A stretch of 64,000 bases of DNA from Bacteroidales bacterium (GTDB taxonomy: Bacteria; Bacteroidota; Bacteroidia; Bacteroidales; UBA932), in NCBI GenBank assembly GCA_015060245.1, contig SUYU01000011.1, forward strand, positions 1-64,000, in the 5' to 3' direction. Positions 32,901 through 38,262 of this stretch are shown here, piece after piece (position 1 is the first letter of the stretch; each line of letters begins with the position of its first letter). Both the position numbers and the translations under genes were made by a program. A model generated the notes under the pieces. It was given only the letters and a program-made list of their open reading frames with translations. It had not been told where the DNA came from and searched no databases.

Positions 32901-32952
32901 TTGCTCCTGACTTATTTTAAGAAAGGGGGCCGTTGGTTCCATATACAGAAGA

Positions 32953-32985
32953 AGGGTTGACTTTCAGGGTCAGCCCTTTTTTTTT
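32953..32985 (+). terminator. Intrinsic terminator of mutA-mutB
   Basis: AGGGTTGAC pairs with GTCAGCCCT (9 bp, one G-U), 7-base loop, followed by a run of T residues; 52 bases after the mutB stop. Confidence 0.85.
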
Positions 32986-33045
32986 ACGCAAATTTCTGCC
33001 ACTATCTGACCGTCGGCACATAAAACAGCATATCGTTTCCTAAAT

Positions 33046-33076
33046 TTTGTATTATTGCAATTTATTCATAAATTTG
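33046..33076 (+). promoter_or_regulatory. Promoter of the leu operon
   Basis: TTTG (33046-33049), a 19-base spacer, and TAAATTTG (33069-33076): full consensus. Transcription should start near 33082, directly ahead of the leader peptide and about 335 nt before leuA. Confidence 0.82.
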
Positions 33077-33098
33077 CTCCCCTAAAAATGGAGAATAT

Positions 33099-33152
33099 AT
33101 GATTTACCGTCTACGACTGCTGGATTCTTTGCAACTGTTGCTCAATGTTTAG
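33099..33152 (+). CDS. leuL: Leucine-rich leader peptide of the leu operon
   Basis: A 17-codon frame translating to MIYRLRLLDSLQLLLNV, with leucine at positions 5, 7, 8, 11, 13, 14 and 15, so 7 of 17 residues are leucine. A GGAG at 33090-33093 precedes the ATG by 5 bases. It begins about 17 nt into the predicted transcript of leuA-leuC-leuD-leuB, and its TAG stop (33150-33152) directly abuts the antiterminator strand at 33153. This is the layout of a ribosome-mediated attenuator: ribosomes stall on leucine codons when charged leucyl-tRNA is scarce. The peptide itself probably has no function. Confidence 0.78.
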   Translation: MIYRLRLLDSLQLLLNV

Positions 33153-33238
33153 TTGGGAGGGGCTGTCGTATGTATTTGTTATTAAGGTAATTTGATATAA
33201 ATGTGCAGGTGCTCCCAATATGTTTGGGGGCACTTTTT
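33153..33238 (+). promoter_or_regulatory. leu attenuator: antiterminator strand and intrinsic terminator
   Basis: The terminator is GTGCTCCCAA (33209-33218) paired with TTGGGGGCAC (33224-33233), 10 bp with one G-U and a 5-base loop, followed by T5. The competing strand TTGGGAG (33153-33159) is perfectly complementary to CTCCCAA (33212-33218) in the terminator's left arm, extendable by one G-U pair. A ribosome that finishes the leader peptide at 33152 would cover 33153-33159, so the terminator forms. A ribosome stalled at leucine codons leaves this strand free to form the antiterminator. Pairings are seen directly; the mechanism follows established attenuation logic. Confidence 0.8.
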
Positions 33239-33308
33239 ATGTGTCCGTTCCCCGGATCTTGAAGTGCAGAAGTGCAATAGCGCACAAAAAAATGATTAAG
33301 CGCCGGAG

Positions 33309-33333
33309 GGAGTGCCGCAATGAGAAGCACTCC
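33309..33333 (+). other. Hairpin in the leuA 5' region
   Basis: GGAGTGC pairs with GCACTCC around an 11-base loop, between the attenuator and leuA. The rest of 33239-33417 has no frame with support. Possible mRNA processing or stability element. Confidence 0.35.
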
Positions 33334-33417
33334 AATGGAGCAAGAGAAGAGTGATGCAGTGGGGCAGCGGGATACAAAATTTGAAAAAAGAGTATATTTA
33401 AAAGATAGAATTAAATT

Positions 33418-34914
33418 ATGGACCAGAAAATTTACGTCTTTGACACCACTTTGAGAGACGGTGAGCAAGTGCCGGGATGTCAACTTAATACTATTGAAAA
33501 GATTGAGTTGGCCAAAAGTCTTGAGGCATTGAATGTTGATGTTATAGAGTGCGGATTCCCGGTTTCAAGCCCAGGTGATTTCAACTCTGTAGTTGAGATT
33601 TCAAAAAATGTAACCAATGCAACAATATGTGCCCTAACCCGTGCGGTAGAGCGCGATATTGAGGTTGCAGCAGAGGCTTTGCATTATGCGAAAAGGGGAA
33701 GGATACATACAGGTATTGGAACTTCGGATTCACATATACGATATAAATTCAATTCAAACAGGGAGGAGATTATTGAGCGCGCTGTTAAGGCTGTAAAGTA
33801 TGCGCGCAGATTTGTGGATGATGTTGAGTTTTATGCCGAAGATGCCGGACGAACCGACAACGAGTATCTTGCAAGAGTCGTTGAGGCTGTAATTGCAGCA
33901 GGTGCCACTGTAGTGAATATTCCTGATACAACAGGATACTGTACGCCTTGGGAGTATGGAGAGAAGATCAAATATCTTATAAACAATGTTCCCAATGCCG
34001 ACAAGGCCATATTGAGTACCCACTGCCATAATGATCTTGGTATGGCTACAGCAAATACAATATCGGGAGTCATGAATGGTGCCCGTCAGGTTGAGGTTAC
34101 AATCAACGGTATTGGCGAGCGTGCCGGCAATACATCCCTTGAGGAGGTTGTAATGACACTCAAGTGCAGAAAAGACCTTCCTTTCTATACAGATATTGAT
34201 GCCAAACAGATATATAAAAATTCACGCCTTGTAAGTACCCTTATGCGTATGCCTGTGCAGCCGAACAAGGCAATTGTGGGAAGAAATGCCTTTGCCCACT
34301 CTTCGGGTATCCACCAGGATGGCGTTCTCAAGAATAGGGAGAGTTATGAAATTATAGACCCTATGGATGTAGGTGTGAACGATTCTGTAATTGCACTTAC
34401 TGCAAGAAGCGGAAGGGCTGCGCTCAATCACCACTATGAGAGATTGGGCATACATCTTGCTCCGGAGGAACTTGATGTTGCATATGAAAAGTTCCTTCAA
34501 TTGGCAGATACCAAAAAGGATGTCAATGACAGTGACCTGCTCATCATTGTGGGTGTGAACCGTAACGAGGCCGCCCGTAAAATACGTCTTAAATTCCTTC
34601 AGGTAATATCGGGAAAGGGTTCGGTCCCTATGGCTACCGTAAAATTGAACATAGATGGCGAAATTTGTACTGCAACCAGCAGTGGAAATGGCCCGATAGA
34701 TGCGGCATTCACTGCTGTAAAACAGTTGGTGAACAGAAAAATTGTTGTGGAGGAGTTCTTGGTACAGGCAATAACACGCGGATCCAATGATATAGGAAAG
34801 GTTCATGTCCAGGTAGAAAACAGGGGTAACCTTTACTACGGATTCTCTGCAAATACAGATATCATCACAGCCTCTGTTGAGGCATTTGTAGATGCAATAT
34901 CAAAATTTATCTAA
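33418..34914 (+). CDS. leuA: 2-isopropylmalate synthase
   Basis: Condenses acetyl-CoA with 2-oxoisovalerate, the committed step of leucine synthesis. In 498 residues the HMGL-type barrel begins with the metal/substrate motif [12 protein letters not shown] (about 9-20), contains [16 protein letters not shown] (metal-binding histidines about 203-205) and the GAGNTSLEE-like segment [12 protein letters not shown]. The C-terminal ~120 residues form the regulatory domain where leucine binds. The start ATG follows AAAAGATAGA without a strong Shine-Dalgarno sequence. It is the first structural gene after the leucine attenuator, so feedback at the enzyme and attenuation at the mRNA probably act together. 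Related citramalate or homocitrate synthases are less likely given leuC, leuD and leuB downstream. Confidence 0.95.
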
Positions 34915-34970: not shown

Positions 34971-36404
34971 ATGGCAAAGACACTATTTGATAAAATATGG
35001 GAGGCCCATGTTGTCCAGGAACTTGAGAATGGACCTACCCAACTCTATATTGACCGGCATTTTATTCATGAGGTAACCTCGCCACAGGCTTTTGGGGGGC
35101 TCGACAAAAGGGGAATAAAGGTATTCCGTCCGGACCAGACATTTGCAACATGTGACCACAACACTCCCACCCTCAATCAGGACAAACCGATTGAGGACCC
35201 CTCATGCAGAGTGCCAATAGAGACATTGGCGGCAAACTGCAGGAACCACGATATAAGATATTTCCCTTTGAGGCATCCGTCAAACGGCATTGTGCATGTA
35301 ATAGGACCGGAGCAGGGCATAACCCAACCGGGAATGACAATAGTCTGTGGCGACAGCCATACAGCCACCCATGGTGCCTTTGGTGCCATAGCCTTTGGAA
35401 TAGGTACCTCGGAGGTGGAGATGGTGTTGGCAACTCAAACATTGCTGCAGAACAAGCCAAAACAGATGCGTATAACAGTAAACGGCAAATTGGGCAAGTG
35501 CGTTACGCCAAAGGATGTGATTCTGTATATAATATCAAAACTCGGCACAAGCGGCGGTACAGGATATTTTGTGGAGTATGCAGGTGAGGTGTTTGAAAAT
35601 ATGAGTATGGAGGGACGTATGACTGTATGCAACATGAGCATTGAGATGGGTGCAAGAGGCGGTTTTGTGGCTCCCGACACCACTACCTTCAACTATCTGC
35701 ACGGACGCAAATATGTGCTTCCTTCTGTACTATCTGCAAACGGTCAGAAGTGTGATGGTATTGCCGGAGAGTGGAATGAGGCCCAGGAGGAGGAGTTCAG
35801 GGCTTTGGTTGAAAAATGGAGCAGACTCTACTCCGATGAGGATGCAAAATTTGACAAGGAGTTCATATTTGATGGCGCCGATATAGAGCCAATGGTAACT
35901 TACGGAACCGATCCGGGCAGGGGAGTGGCAGTTACAGGAACAATTCCGGAGTGTGATGAGAGCGGCCGCAAAGGGTTGGCATATATGGGATTCGCTGCGG
36001 GAGAGAAGATGTTGGGCAAAAAGGTGGATTATGTTTTTGTAGGAAGTTGCACAAACGGCAGGATTGAGGATTTCAGGGCTTTTGCAGATTATGTCAAGGG
36101 CAAGAAGAAGGCTTCAGACGTTACCGTATGGCTTGTGCCGGGCTCAGTTGAGGTCGAACAGAAAATAGCAGATGAGGGTATAGACAAGATACTTGCCGAG
36201 GCTGGTTTTGAGTTGAGACAGCCTGGCTGTTCTGCCTGTCTGGCCATGAACGCCGACAAGGTGCCAAGCGGGGCATACTCACTCTCTACATCAAACAGGA
36301 ATTTTGAGGGACGCCAGGGACAAGGCGCAAGAACAATGCTGTGCAGTCCGATTGTGGCAGCCGCAGCAGCCGTTACAGGCGTCATTACAGATCCAAGAGA
36401 GTAG
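34971..36404 (+). CDS. leuC: 3-isopropylmalate dehydratase large subunit
   Basis: An aconitase-family subunit that, with LeuD, isomerises 2- to 3-isopropylmalate. The 477 residues match the family. [4Fe-4S] ligands are expected in the [14 protein letters not shown] segment (about residue 347) and the [10 protein letters not shown] segment (about 418 and 421). [14 protein letters not shown] is the conserved active-site block. It lies 56 bases after leuA. The following 128-base gap to leuD contains two hairpins. Confidence 0.95.
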
Positions 36405-36463: not shown

Positions 36464-36532
36464 CACAAAATGGAAGATCAAGTGTATGATTGAAGGGCCG
36501 GTTTGTAGGGAAGAGAATAAAAAATATTGGAA

Positions 36533-37123
36533 ATGGCTTTTGAAAAGATAAATATTTTGAGGTCTGAAGTAATTGCTACTCCTGTGGAGAATATTGATAC
36601 AGACCAGATTATACCAGCAAGGTTTCTCAAGGCTACCAAAAGGGAGGGCTTTGGAGATGCCATGTTCAGGGATTGGAGGTATACCCAGAACAATGAGTTG
36701 ATAGAGGATTCGGTTTTTGCCAAGGGAAGCAAAGATGCAAGGATTCTTGTAGCCGGAAAGAATTTCGGTTGCGGTTCGAGTCGTGAGCATGCTGCCTGGG
36801 CTATTGCCGATTATGGATTCAGAGCAGTTGTTTCAAGTTTCTTTGCAGATATTTTCAAGAACAACGCCTTGAACAACGGCCTTTTGCCGGTTCAGGTGAG
36901 TGAGGAGTTCCTGGCTGCCATCTTTCAGGCAAAGGAAAAGAACGGTAAGGTTGAACTTGAAATCAATCTGCCGCAAAGAAGCATTGCTATAGTTGGAACA
37001 GATATGAAAGAGAGTTTCCCAATAGGCGAGTACAAGCGCCATTGTCTTGAGAATGGACTTGAAGATATTGATTATCTGCTCTCTACAAAAGAGATTATTG
37101 CCGCTTATGAGCAGAGGCGATAA
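36533..37123 (+). CDS. leuD: 3-isopropylmalate dehydratase small subunit
   Basis: The swivel-domain partner of LeuC, 196 residues from the ATG at 36533; a TTG two codons earlier is open but unlikely. Conserved blocks: [14 protein letters not shown] near the N-terminus and the substrate-binding loop [16 protein letters not shown] (about residues 67-82). The length matches LeuD. It lies 62 bases ahead of leuB and should be cotranscribed with leuA-leuC. Confidence 0.95.
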
Positions 37124-37185: not shown

Positions 37186-38262
37186 ATGAAGAAAAATATA
37201 GCAGTTTTACCGGGTGACGGTGTTGGCCCGGAGATTATAGCACAGGCACAGCGTGTGCTTGAGGCGGTTGGAAAGAGATTTGGTCATGAGTTCGTTTTTG
37301 AGTTTGGCCTTATTGGCGCTTGTGCAATAGATGAGTGCGGAGAGCCGTATCCACAGAAGACCCATGAGTTGTGCCAAAAGAGTGATGCGGTGCTTTTTGG
37401 AGCAATTGGAGATCCTAAATACGACAACAATCCCAATGCAAAGGTGAGGCCGGAGCAGGGTTTGCTCAAGATGCGCAAGAGCCTGGGACTCTTTGCCAAT
37501 TTGAGGCCCATTGCCCCTTTTGATTGCCTTATAGAGAAGTCTCCCCTTAAAATGGAGCGAATAAAGGGCGCAGACCTTATGATTGTGCGTGAACTTACCG
37601 GCGGACTCTATTTCGGTGAGCCACGTGGCAGAAGTGAGAATGGTTCTGTTGCTTTTGACACATGTGTGTACAGCAAGGAGGAGATTTTGCGAGTTGCCGA
37701 GAAGGCATTTGAACTCGCCAGAATAAGAAGGGGCGCGGTTACCATGGTAGACAAGGCGAATGTCCTTGCAACAAGCAGGCTCTGGAGAGAGACTGTAAAG
37801 GAACTTCAGGCGGAGAAGTATCCCGATATTGAACTTGATTTCATGTTTGTAGACAATGCTGCAATGCAACTTGTTACAGCACCGGGCAAATTTGATGTCC
37901 TTCTTACCGAGAATCTTTTTGGTGACATCTTGAGTGATGAAGCAAGTGTAATCACCGGCTCGATAGGTCTTTTGCCTTCTGCATCCGTTGGAAAGGAGGT
38001 TTCGCTTTACGAGCCTATACATGGTTCATATCCGCAGGCAAAGGGCAAGAATATTGCCAATCCTATTGCAACCATACTCTCTGCAGCCATGATGCTTGAG
38101 TACTCTTTCGGCATGAAGCAGGAGGCTCAACTGATAAGGAGTGCTTGCCAGAAATCAATTGAAGAGGGTATTGTAACCGAGGATTTGGCAGGAGTATCAG
38201 CCAAATCTTACGGAACCACAGATGTGGGCGATTATATATGTAAGGCAATTGCCGGTGAGTAA
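37186..38262 (+). CDS. leuB: 3-isopropylmalate dehydrogenase
   Basis: Oxidatively decarboxylates 3-isopropylmalate to 2-oxoisocaproate with NAD+, the third leucine-specific step. The 358 residues match the family. Visible blocks: LPGDGVGPEI at the N-terminus, the substrate arginines in KVRPEQGLLKMRKSL, RELTGGLYFGEPRG with the LeuB-type tyrosine, the metal-binding FGDILSDEAS, and PIHGSYPQAKGKNIANP (NAD-binding). It is the last gene of the leu operon and converges on the O-methyltransferase gene with an 8-base gap; no clear intrinsic terminator is seen. Confidence 0.96.
   Translation: MKKNIAVLPGDGVGPEIIAQAQRVLEAVGKRFGHEFVFEFGLIGACAIDECGEPYPQKTHELCQKSDAVLFGAIGDPKYDNNPNAKVRPEQGLLKMRKSLGLFANLRPIAPFDCLIEKSPLKMERIKGADLMIVRELTGGLYFGEPRGRSENGSVAFDTCVYSKEEILRVAEKAFELARIRRGAVTMVDKANVLATSRLWRETVKELQAEKYPDIELDFMFVDNAAMQLVTAPGKFDVLLTENLFGDILSDEASVITGSIGLLPSASVGKEVSLYEPIHGSYPQAKGKNIANPIATILSAAMMLEYSFGMKQEAQLIRSACQKSIEEGIVTEDLAGVSAKSYGTTDVGDYICKAIAGE

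Follow-up and report, generated by a model that had tools for sequence, protein, structure and literature searches.

A putative leucine attenuator upstream of leuACDB in an uncultured gut Bacteroidales bacterium and similar leaders in related genomes

The 64,000-nt stretch of DNA analyzed here (hereafter the window) belongs to the genome of an uncultured gut Bacteroidales bacterium (G000; 2.2 Mb, 92% complete) and carries genes for leucine synthesis on its plus strand, on which all window features described below lie. These genes are leuA (33418–34914; 2-isopropylmalate synthase, NCBIfam TIGR00973, 661.4 bits), leuC (34971–36404; TIGR00170), leuD (36527–37123; TIGR00171), and leuB (37186–38262; TIGR00169). 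All four scored over their NCBIfam cut-offs, in agreement with the order leuA-leuC-leuD-leuB given in a preliminary description of this DNA. The leuD ORF was listed from a TTG, and its actual start may be a few codons further in. The gene order leuACDB is unlike that of E. coli, leuABCD. A tblastn search of the window with LeuA as query matched no cimA-like gene. Upstream of the operon, a terminator-like hairpin (32948–32982) lies 3' of a methylmalonyl-CoA mutase gene; the segment 32941–32982 folds at −20.0 kcal/mol with a T run at its end, and the predicted hairpin would insulate the mutase gene from the leu promoter.

A promoter-like motif read from the sequence (33046–33076) comprises TTTG at 33046–33049, a 19-nt gap, and TAAATTTG at 33069–33076, with both boxes lying where the preliminary description had placed them. 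We take the TTTG/TAnnTTTG motif to be the Bacteroidota promoter type. Apart from one match within the terminator described below, TAAATTTG is the sole match to TAnnTTTG in 32986–33420. Of 61 leaders compiled from leuA loci, 44 have TAnnTTTG in the 70 nt that precede their ATG, compared with about 4 expected from shuffles; the nearest relative of the window locus, L002, is without the exact motif. Transcription probably starts just upstream of the leader. The leader ORF, MIYRLRLLDSLQLLLNV (33099–33152), was confirmed by direct reading as the 17-codon peptide with seven leucines reported earlier, encoded by CTA CTG CTG TTG CTG TTG CTC, and is presumably translated. L002 has the leader MIYRLRLLDSLQLLLNL, with DNA nearly identical to that of the window leader.

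Downstream of the leader is an intrinsic terminator (33209–33238) with a 10-bp stem, a 5-nt loop, and T5. The stem-loop, GTGCTCCCAA-TATGT-TTGGGGGCAC (33209–33233), contains one G-T pair among its ten and has a folding energy of −18.7 kcal/mol, bearing out the terminator described earlier; a simple hairpin scan lengthens the stem to 12 pairs (33207–33235). Termination would be expected at 33238. The segment from the terminator to leuA (33239–33417) is about 75 nt longer than in L002, and we saw no function in it.

Folding also identified a competing helix between an antiterminator strand, GTTGGGAG (33152–33159), and its partner, CTCCCAAT (33212–33219). The preliminary description had noted TTGGGAG at 33153–33159 and its complement CTCCCAA inside the left arm of the terminator; both are present, and folding upheld their pairing. 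It had also placed the start of the strand after the stop codon, which required correction: the strand is 8 nt long, so that its first base is the final base of the stop codon. A further stem-loop between the two strands (33163–33208) was absent from that description. When the RNA was left free from 33148, the predicted fold was the antiterminator over this stem-loop (−26.8 kcal/mol), and when the RNA was covered to 33162, as a ribosome resting on the stop codon would do, it was the stem plus the terminator (−26.7 kcal/mol). The two predicted folds are thus nearly equal in energy and mutually exclusive. Pairing between the left arm of the terminator and the sequence that follows the Leu codons reached −18.1 kcal/mol against a shuffle mean of −5.7 kcal/mol, stronger than in 400 of 400 dinucleotide shuffles (p 0.0025). 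In the full fold, TACGAC (33112–33117) pairs with GTCGTA (33165–33170) as a possible protector strand. This protector pairing did not reach significance against shuffles at the window locus (p 0.086) and gave p ≤ 0.05 in 45 of 93 loci.

Leaders of this kind recur among relatives. A LeuA match (E ≤ 0.001) was found in 35 of 61 genomes, the window's own included, with some of these being distant paralogs only. A contig search for LeuA, from which the best 80 of 372 loci were taken, brought the set to 104 distinct loci after removal of duplicates. A detector for an L/I/V-rich short ORF followed by a terminator matched 49 of these 104 loci. Applied to 346 other ORFs (250 aa or longer) at the same loci, it matched two, and one of the two is apparently ilvD with a genuine leader. 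Three leaders were added by hand (L009, L039, L023), and the second-ranked ORF was used for L060. A class-wide search contributed nine more, picked among ten same-order loci (L136, without a terminator, was left out), and an order-wide search, with 80 loci drawn from 220 matching genomes of 391, contributed 32, for a total of 93 leaders. Detector matches at L227, L255, and L283 were dropped, as their ORFs lay far upstream or within another gene. The detector found nothing at 45 of the 80 order-wide loci, some of which repeat loci of the earlier set; L236, L263, L267, and L279 have a leader-like ORF with a terminator below the threshold. Among 59 loci from other orders (L141–L199), we found no convincing leader directly before leuA. 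Weak short Leu-containing ORFs or hairpins precede leuA in several of these, including L148, L150, L171, and L188.

The competing pairing was also common. A first antiterminator test, with its starting point 12 nt upstream of the stop codon end, gave p ≤ 0.05 in 24 of 52 leaders and missed strands lying inside longer leaders. Later tests, redefined after earlier results had been seen, took the Leu/Ile cluster end as the starting point (in two slightly different definitions) and gave 38 of 52, then 46 of 61 once the nine leaders were added. In the set of 61, p was ≤ 0.01 in 32 leaders, and the strands comprised 43 distinct sequences. The last definition, run unchanged on the 32 new leaders, gave p ≤ 0.05 in 20. 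Values above 0.05 were obtained for 15 of the 61 and 12 of the 32, with L005, L006, L008, L091, L210, and L280 near chance. We note that the leader loci are related to each other, so all of these counts overstate independence.

The preliminary description had proposed comparing leuA upstream regions of relatives, and this comparison supports it: Leu codons and competing pairings recur, and the two strand sequences vary in concert. Within one genus, the strand pairs include GTTGGGAG/CTCCCAAT, AAAGAAGT/ACTTCTTT, GTGAGAG/CTCTCAT, and TGAGAG/CTCTCA. Conservation was incomplete, with 10 of 16 same-genus loci (leuA at least 68% identical) keeping a leader and six, L010–L014 and L026, without one. 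Under the refutation condition set in the preliminary description, these six count against the interpretation, though we read most of them as losses. The leuA of L026 is only 68% identical to that of the window and is placed elsewhere on the LeuA tree. The absence in L010–L014 looks like a loss of attenuation. At these five loci leuA follows a hairpin and an rpsU-like gene, while the related locus L009 has a leader. The gene in question presumably encodes ribosomal protein S21. On the LeuA tree (108 rows), leader presence changes 11 times, a count that missed leaders would inflate. Many other loci have leuA with no leader directly before it, and some of these leaderless genes presumably follow ilvC. 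The same kind of putative attenuator is common to many related bacteria and is not universal.

The position of the antiterminator strand relative to the Leu and Ile codons was constrained. Counted from the last Leu/Ile cluster codon, the start of the longest antiterminator helix had a median distance of 15 nt in the 61 leaders (interquartile range 12–17); the helix was picked by the fold itself, a choice for which the shuffles control. The standard deviation of the strand start was 4.7 when counted from the last Leu/Ile codon, compared with 10.0 when counted from the stop codon and 18.4 in shuffles, and the start fell 3–20 nt past that codon in 89% of leaders and 35% of shuffles. The 32 new leaders gave a median of 16 nt and a standard deviation of 5.1, compared with 9.1 when the stop codon was the reference. 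A distance of 14–16 nt is about that expected, from ribosome footprints, for the front edge of a stalled ribosome. In many relatives, the antiterminator strand lies inside the 3' codons of the leader itself. The geometry proposed earlier, in which a ribosome at the stop codon masks the strand and one stalled in the Leu codons does not, agrees overall with the computed spacing, except that the last regulatory codon, rather than the stop codon, is the steadier reference (4.7 versus 10.0). The window strand starts 14 nt past the CTG at 33135 and 8 nt past the last Leu codon, CTC. By the computed spacing, this CTG is suitably placed and the CTC is borderline; with the CTC so close to the strand, only stalls at earlier codons would clearly free it.

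Synonymous codon choice in the leaders differed from that in the genes downstream. CTA was the most common Leu codon in the 61 leaders (110 of 294, compared with 45 of 2021 in their leuA genes), its share was higher in the leader than in leuA at 53 of 61 loci, and it made up 54 of 157 Leu codons in the 32 further leaders. Among leader Ile codons, ATT accounted for 166 of 198, against 930 of 2706 in leuA genes. The window leader uses one CTA and three CTG among its seven Leu codons, whereas six window genes seldom use either codon (23 of their 190 Leu codons; the chance of at least 4 in 7 is 0.006). One paper cites CUA as the codon of the Salmonella leu attenuator and argues why codons of this type make the response sharper (PMC1183508).

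Taken together, the Leu-rich ORF (7 of 17 codons), the terminator, and the mutually exclusive antiterminator, all predicted from sequence and folding, make it very probable that the leuACDB leader is a classical ribosome-mediated transcription attenuator. That interpretation had been advanced in the preliminary description, and it is supported by the parts, the competing folds, the recurrence in relatives, the codon choice, and the spacing. The signal sensed would be leucine. Following transcription initiation just upstream of the leader, plentiful charged tRNA-Leu would allow a ribosome to reach the stop codon and cover 33152–33159, and the terminator at 33209–33238 would form. When leucine is short, the ribosome would instead stall on the Leu codons with its front edge ending before 33152. 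The strand at 33152–33159 would then pair with 33212–33219 across the stem-loop, no terminator would form, and the operon would be read.

Other explanations account for parts of these observations. A leader that binds a metabolite or a tRNA, that is, a riboswitch or T-box, could control the terminator with the ORF being incidental. T-boxes likewise have a terminator ahead of an amino-acid gene, as a portion of a 2010 paper describes (PMC2965389), and the simplest attenuator model does not need the central stem-loop. We consider this highly unlikely: the Rfam search of the window and of 10 related leuA loci matched no family at gathering score and gave no sign of a conserved pocket, and different families share the codons, the spacing, and the pairing but not the strand sequences. 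The skew towards CTA is, moreover, a synonymous choice that an element without translation would not need. It is harder still to credit a leader that acts only through translation, by reinitiation or transcript stability, with the hairpin an ordinary small-RNA terminator. A role in reinitiation has been proposed for leaders near structural genes, which in Bacteroidetes peak at 11–14 bp according to one section of a study (PMC4833913), but the window leader stops 265 nt from leuA with a T-run terminator between them, and neither antiterminator pairing nor spacing plays a role in such a model.

A further possibility is chance, with short Leu-rich ORFs and hairpins being frequent and their pairing fortuitous. 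The number of hairpins at this single locus is indeed near expectation (2, against a shuffle mean of 1.2). Chance nevertheless seems a next to negligible explanation given the pairing p of 0.0025 and the contrast between 49 of 104 leuA loci and 2 of 346 other ORFs. The comparison with L002 points the same way, with leader ORF, antiterminator strands, and terminator nearly identical between the two loci while the flanks differ.

The predicted ribosome-mediated attenuator resembles leuL of E. coli K-12 in several respects. Both have a Leu leader peptide (annotated as such in E. coli) and a terminator with a T run, followed by leuA, and both folds include extra pairing between the two strands. 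leuL contains four CTA in a row, a preference common to it and the Bacteroidales leaders, and the same folding procedure placed its first antiterminator pair 14 nt past the last CTA of the run, matching the strand start past CTG 33135 in the window. The two differ in leader peptide and strand sequences, in the TAnnTTTG-type promoter motif of the window, and in the position of the antiterminator strand, which lies within the leader ORF, before the stop codon, in leuL and at the stop codon in the window. Leu leaders are among the leader families of Rfam 15. A search of the window and two locus sets at gathering score gave no leader family and, as sole match, one tRNA; the window leader would thus work like leuL without being a member of those sequence families.

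The preliminary description considered such attenuation little documented in Bacteroidota. Flavobacterium belongs to a different class of Bacteroidota, and the Bacteroid-trp RNA holds a Trp leader. In the part of a transcriptome study that deals with leader peptides, amino-acid operons of Flavobacterium psychrophilum are said to provide "strong clues" for leader-peptide attenuation, so this mechanism has already been suggested in print for the phylum (PMC9723704). These operons share with the window a leader peptide and a structured 5' region, and the passage on leader peptides names no leu attenuator (PMC9723704). Bacteroid-trp (Rfam RF01692) is presented in a portion of another paper as a probable cis-regulatory RNA of Bacteroidetes (PMC2864571); by name it is a trp element, and it had no match in the window or the loci scanned. 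The phylum is thus not blank (PMC9723704, PMC2864571). Part of a study of Bacteroides thetaiotaomicron mentions short ORFs in 5' UTRs that are reminiscent of leader peptides (PMC7366714). Outside Proteobacteria, a leucine-rich attenuator peptide for branched-chain amino acids is described in an excerpt on Staphylococcus aureus (PMC5794164); it is Leu-rich like that of the window and differs in acting together with CodY. A passage from 2010 lists leader-peptide systems as shown only in Proteobacteria and Actinobacteria, to which Firmicutes were then added (PMC2965389). Among the literature matches listed, mostly titles and the starts of abstracts, no paper concerned a leu attenuator in Bacteroidota. 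The leader would place textbook control, with rare-codon choice and spacing like those of E. coli, upstream of leucine synthesis genes in a major gut order, and such leaders offer testable markers for when uncultured gut Bacteroidales sense amino-acid shortage.

Other amino-acid operons have comparable leaders. In the window's genome, a Val/Ile-rich leader, MSGQILDVIVVVVLSVIIIK, with an antiterminator, GAATCCATTA, and a terminator lies upstream of ilvD (L128, G000:C30); its strand starts 13 nt past the last Ile codon (pairing p 0.037), and it is likely a second attenuator of this genome. A likely third lies upstream of hisG (L203, G000:C30), where a His-rich leader, MQFTSFNHLHHHHHEKQ, is followed by a terminator and an antiterminator with the strand start at 14 nt and pairing p 0.005. 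The codons of the three leaders each match the product of their own operon. Judged by eye, 16 of 20 ilvD loci have an L/I/V-rich leader, and 10 of the 12 ilv, his, and trp leaders chosen by eye for the pairing test reached p ≤ 0.05. Upstream of trpE in a relative (L207), the leader MQLFSNIWWWQSLIIFVERSY is followed by a terminator, with a pairing p of 0.08.

On balance, we favor the view that the leaders belong to an order-wide, largely undescribed group of Bacteroidales leader-peptide attenuators (leu, ilv, his, and probably trp) that follow a single spacing rule. In the leu leaders, the sensing codons would be retuned to the operon's product, to Leu and Ile where the operon has a citramalate-synthase-like gene and to Leu alone where it does not. 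At least two leader Ile codons were present in 65 of 65 leaders with such a gene in the operon, compared with 2 of 20 without (L003, L036); 8 of the 93 leaders, with operon content that could not be assigned, were left out, and five of the negative assignments come from incomplete genomes in which LeuA gave no second match. The gene is about 25–32% identical to LeuA, and for the one tested the best match was CimA (NF042433, 651.6 bits, below the model cut-off of 950). On the LeuA tree, the operon trait changes three times, with the leader changing in the same direction in 2.9 of the three on average and in the opposite direction in none; with only three independent changes, significance is out of reach, and the link between Ile codons and cimA is a lead rather than a proven rule. 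If it is true, leader codons would be a readable record of the operon's product, and the link could help assign operon products from sequence. At one locus, L230, leuA is without leuC, leuD, or leuB in the stretch examined and is preceded by a Leu-only leader.
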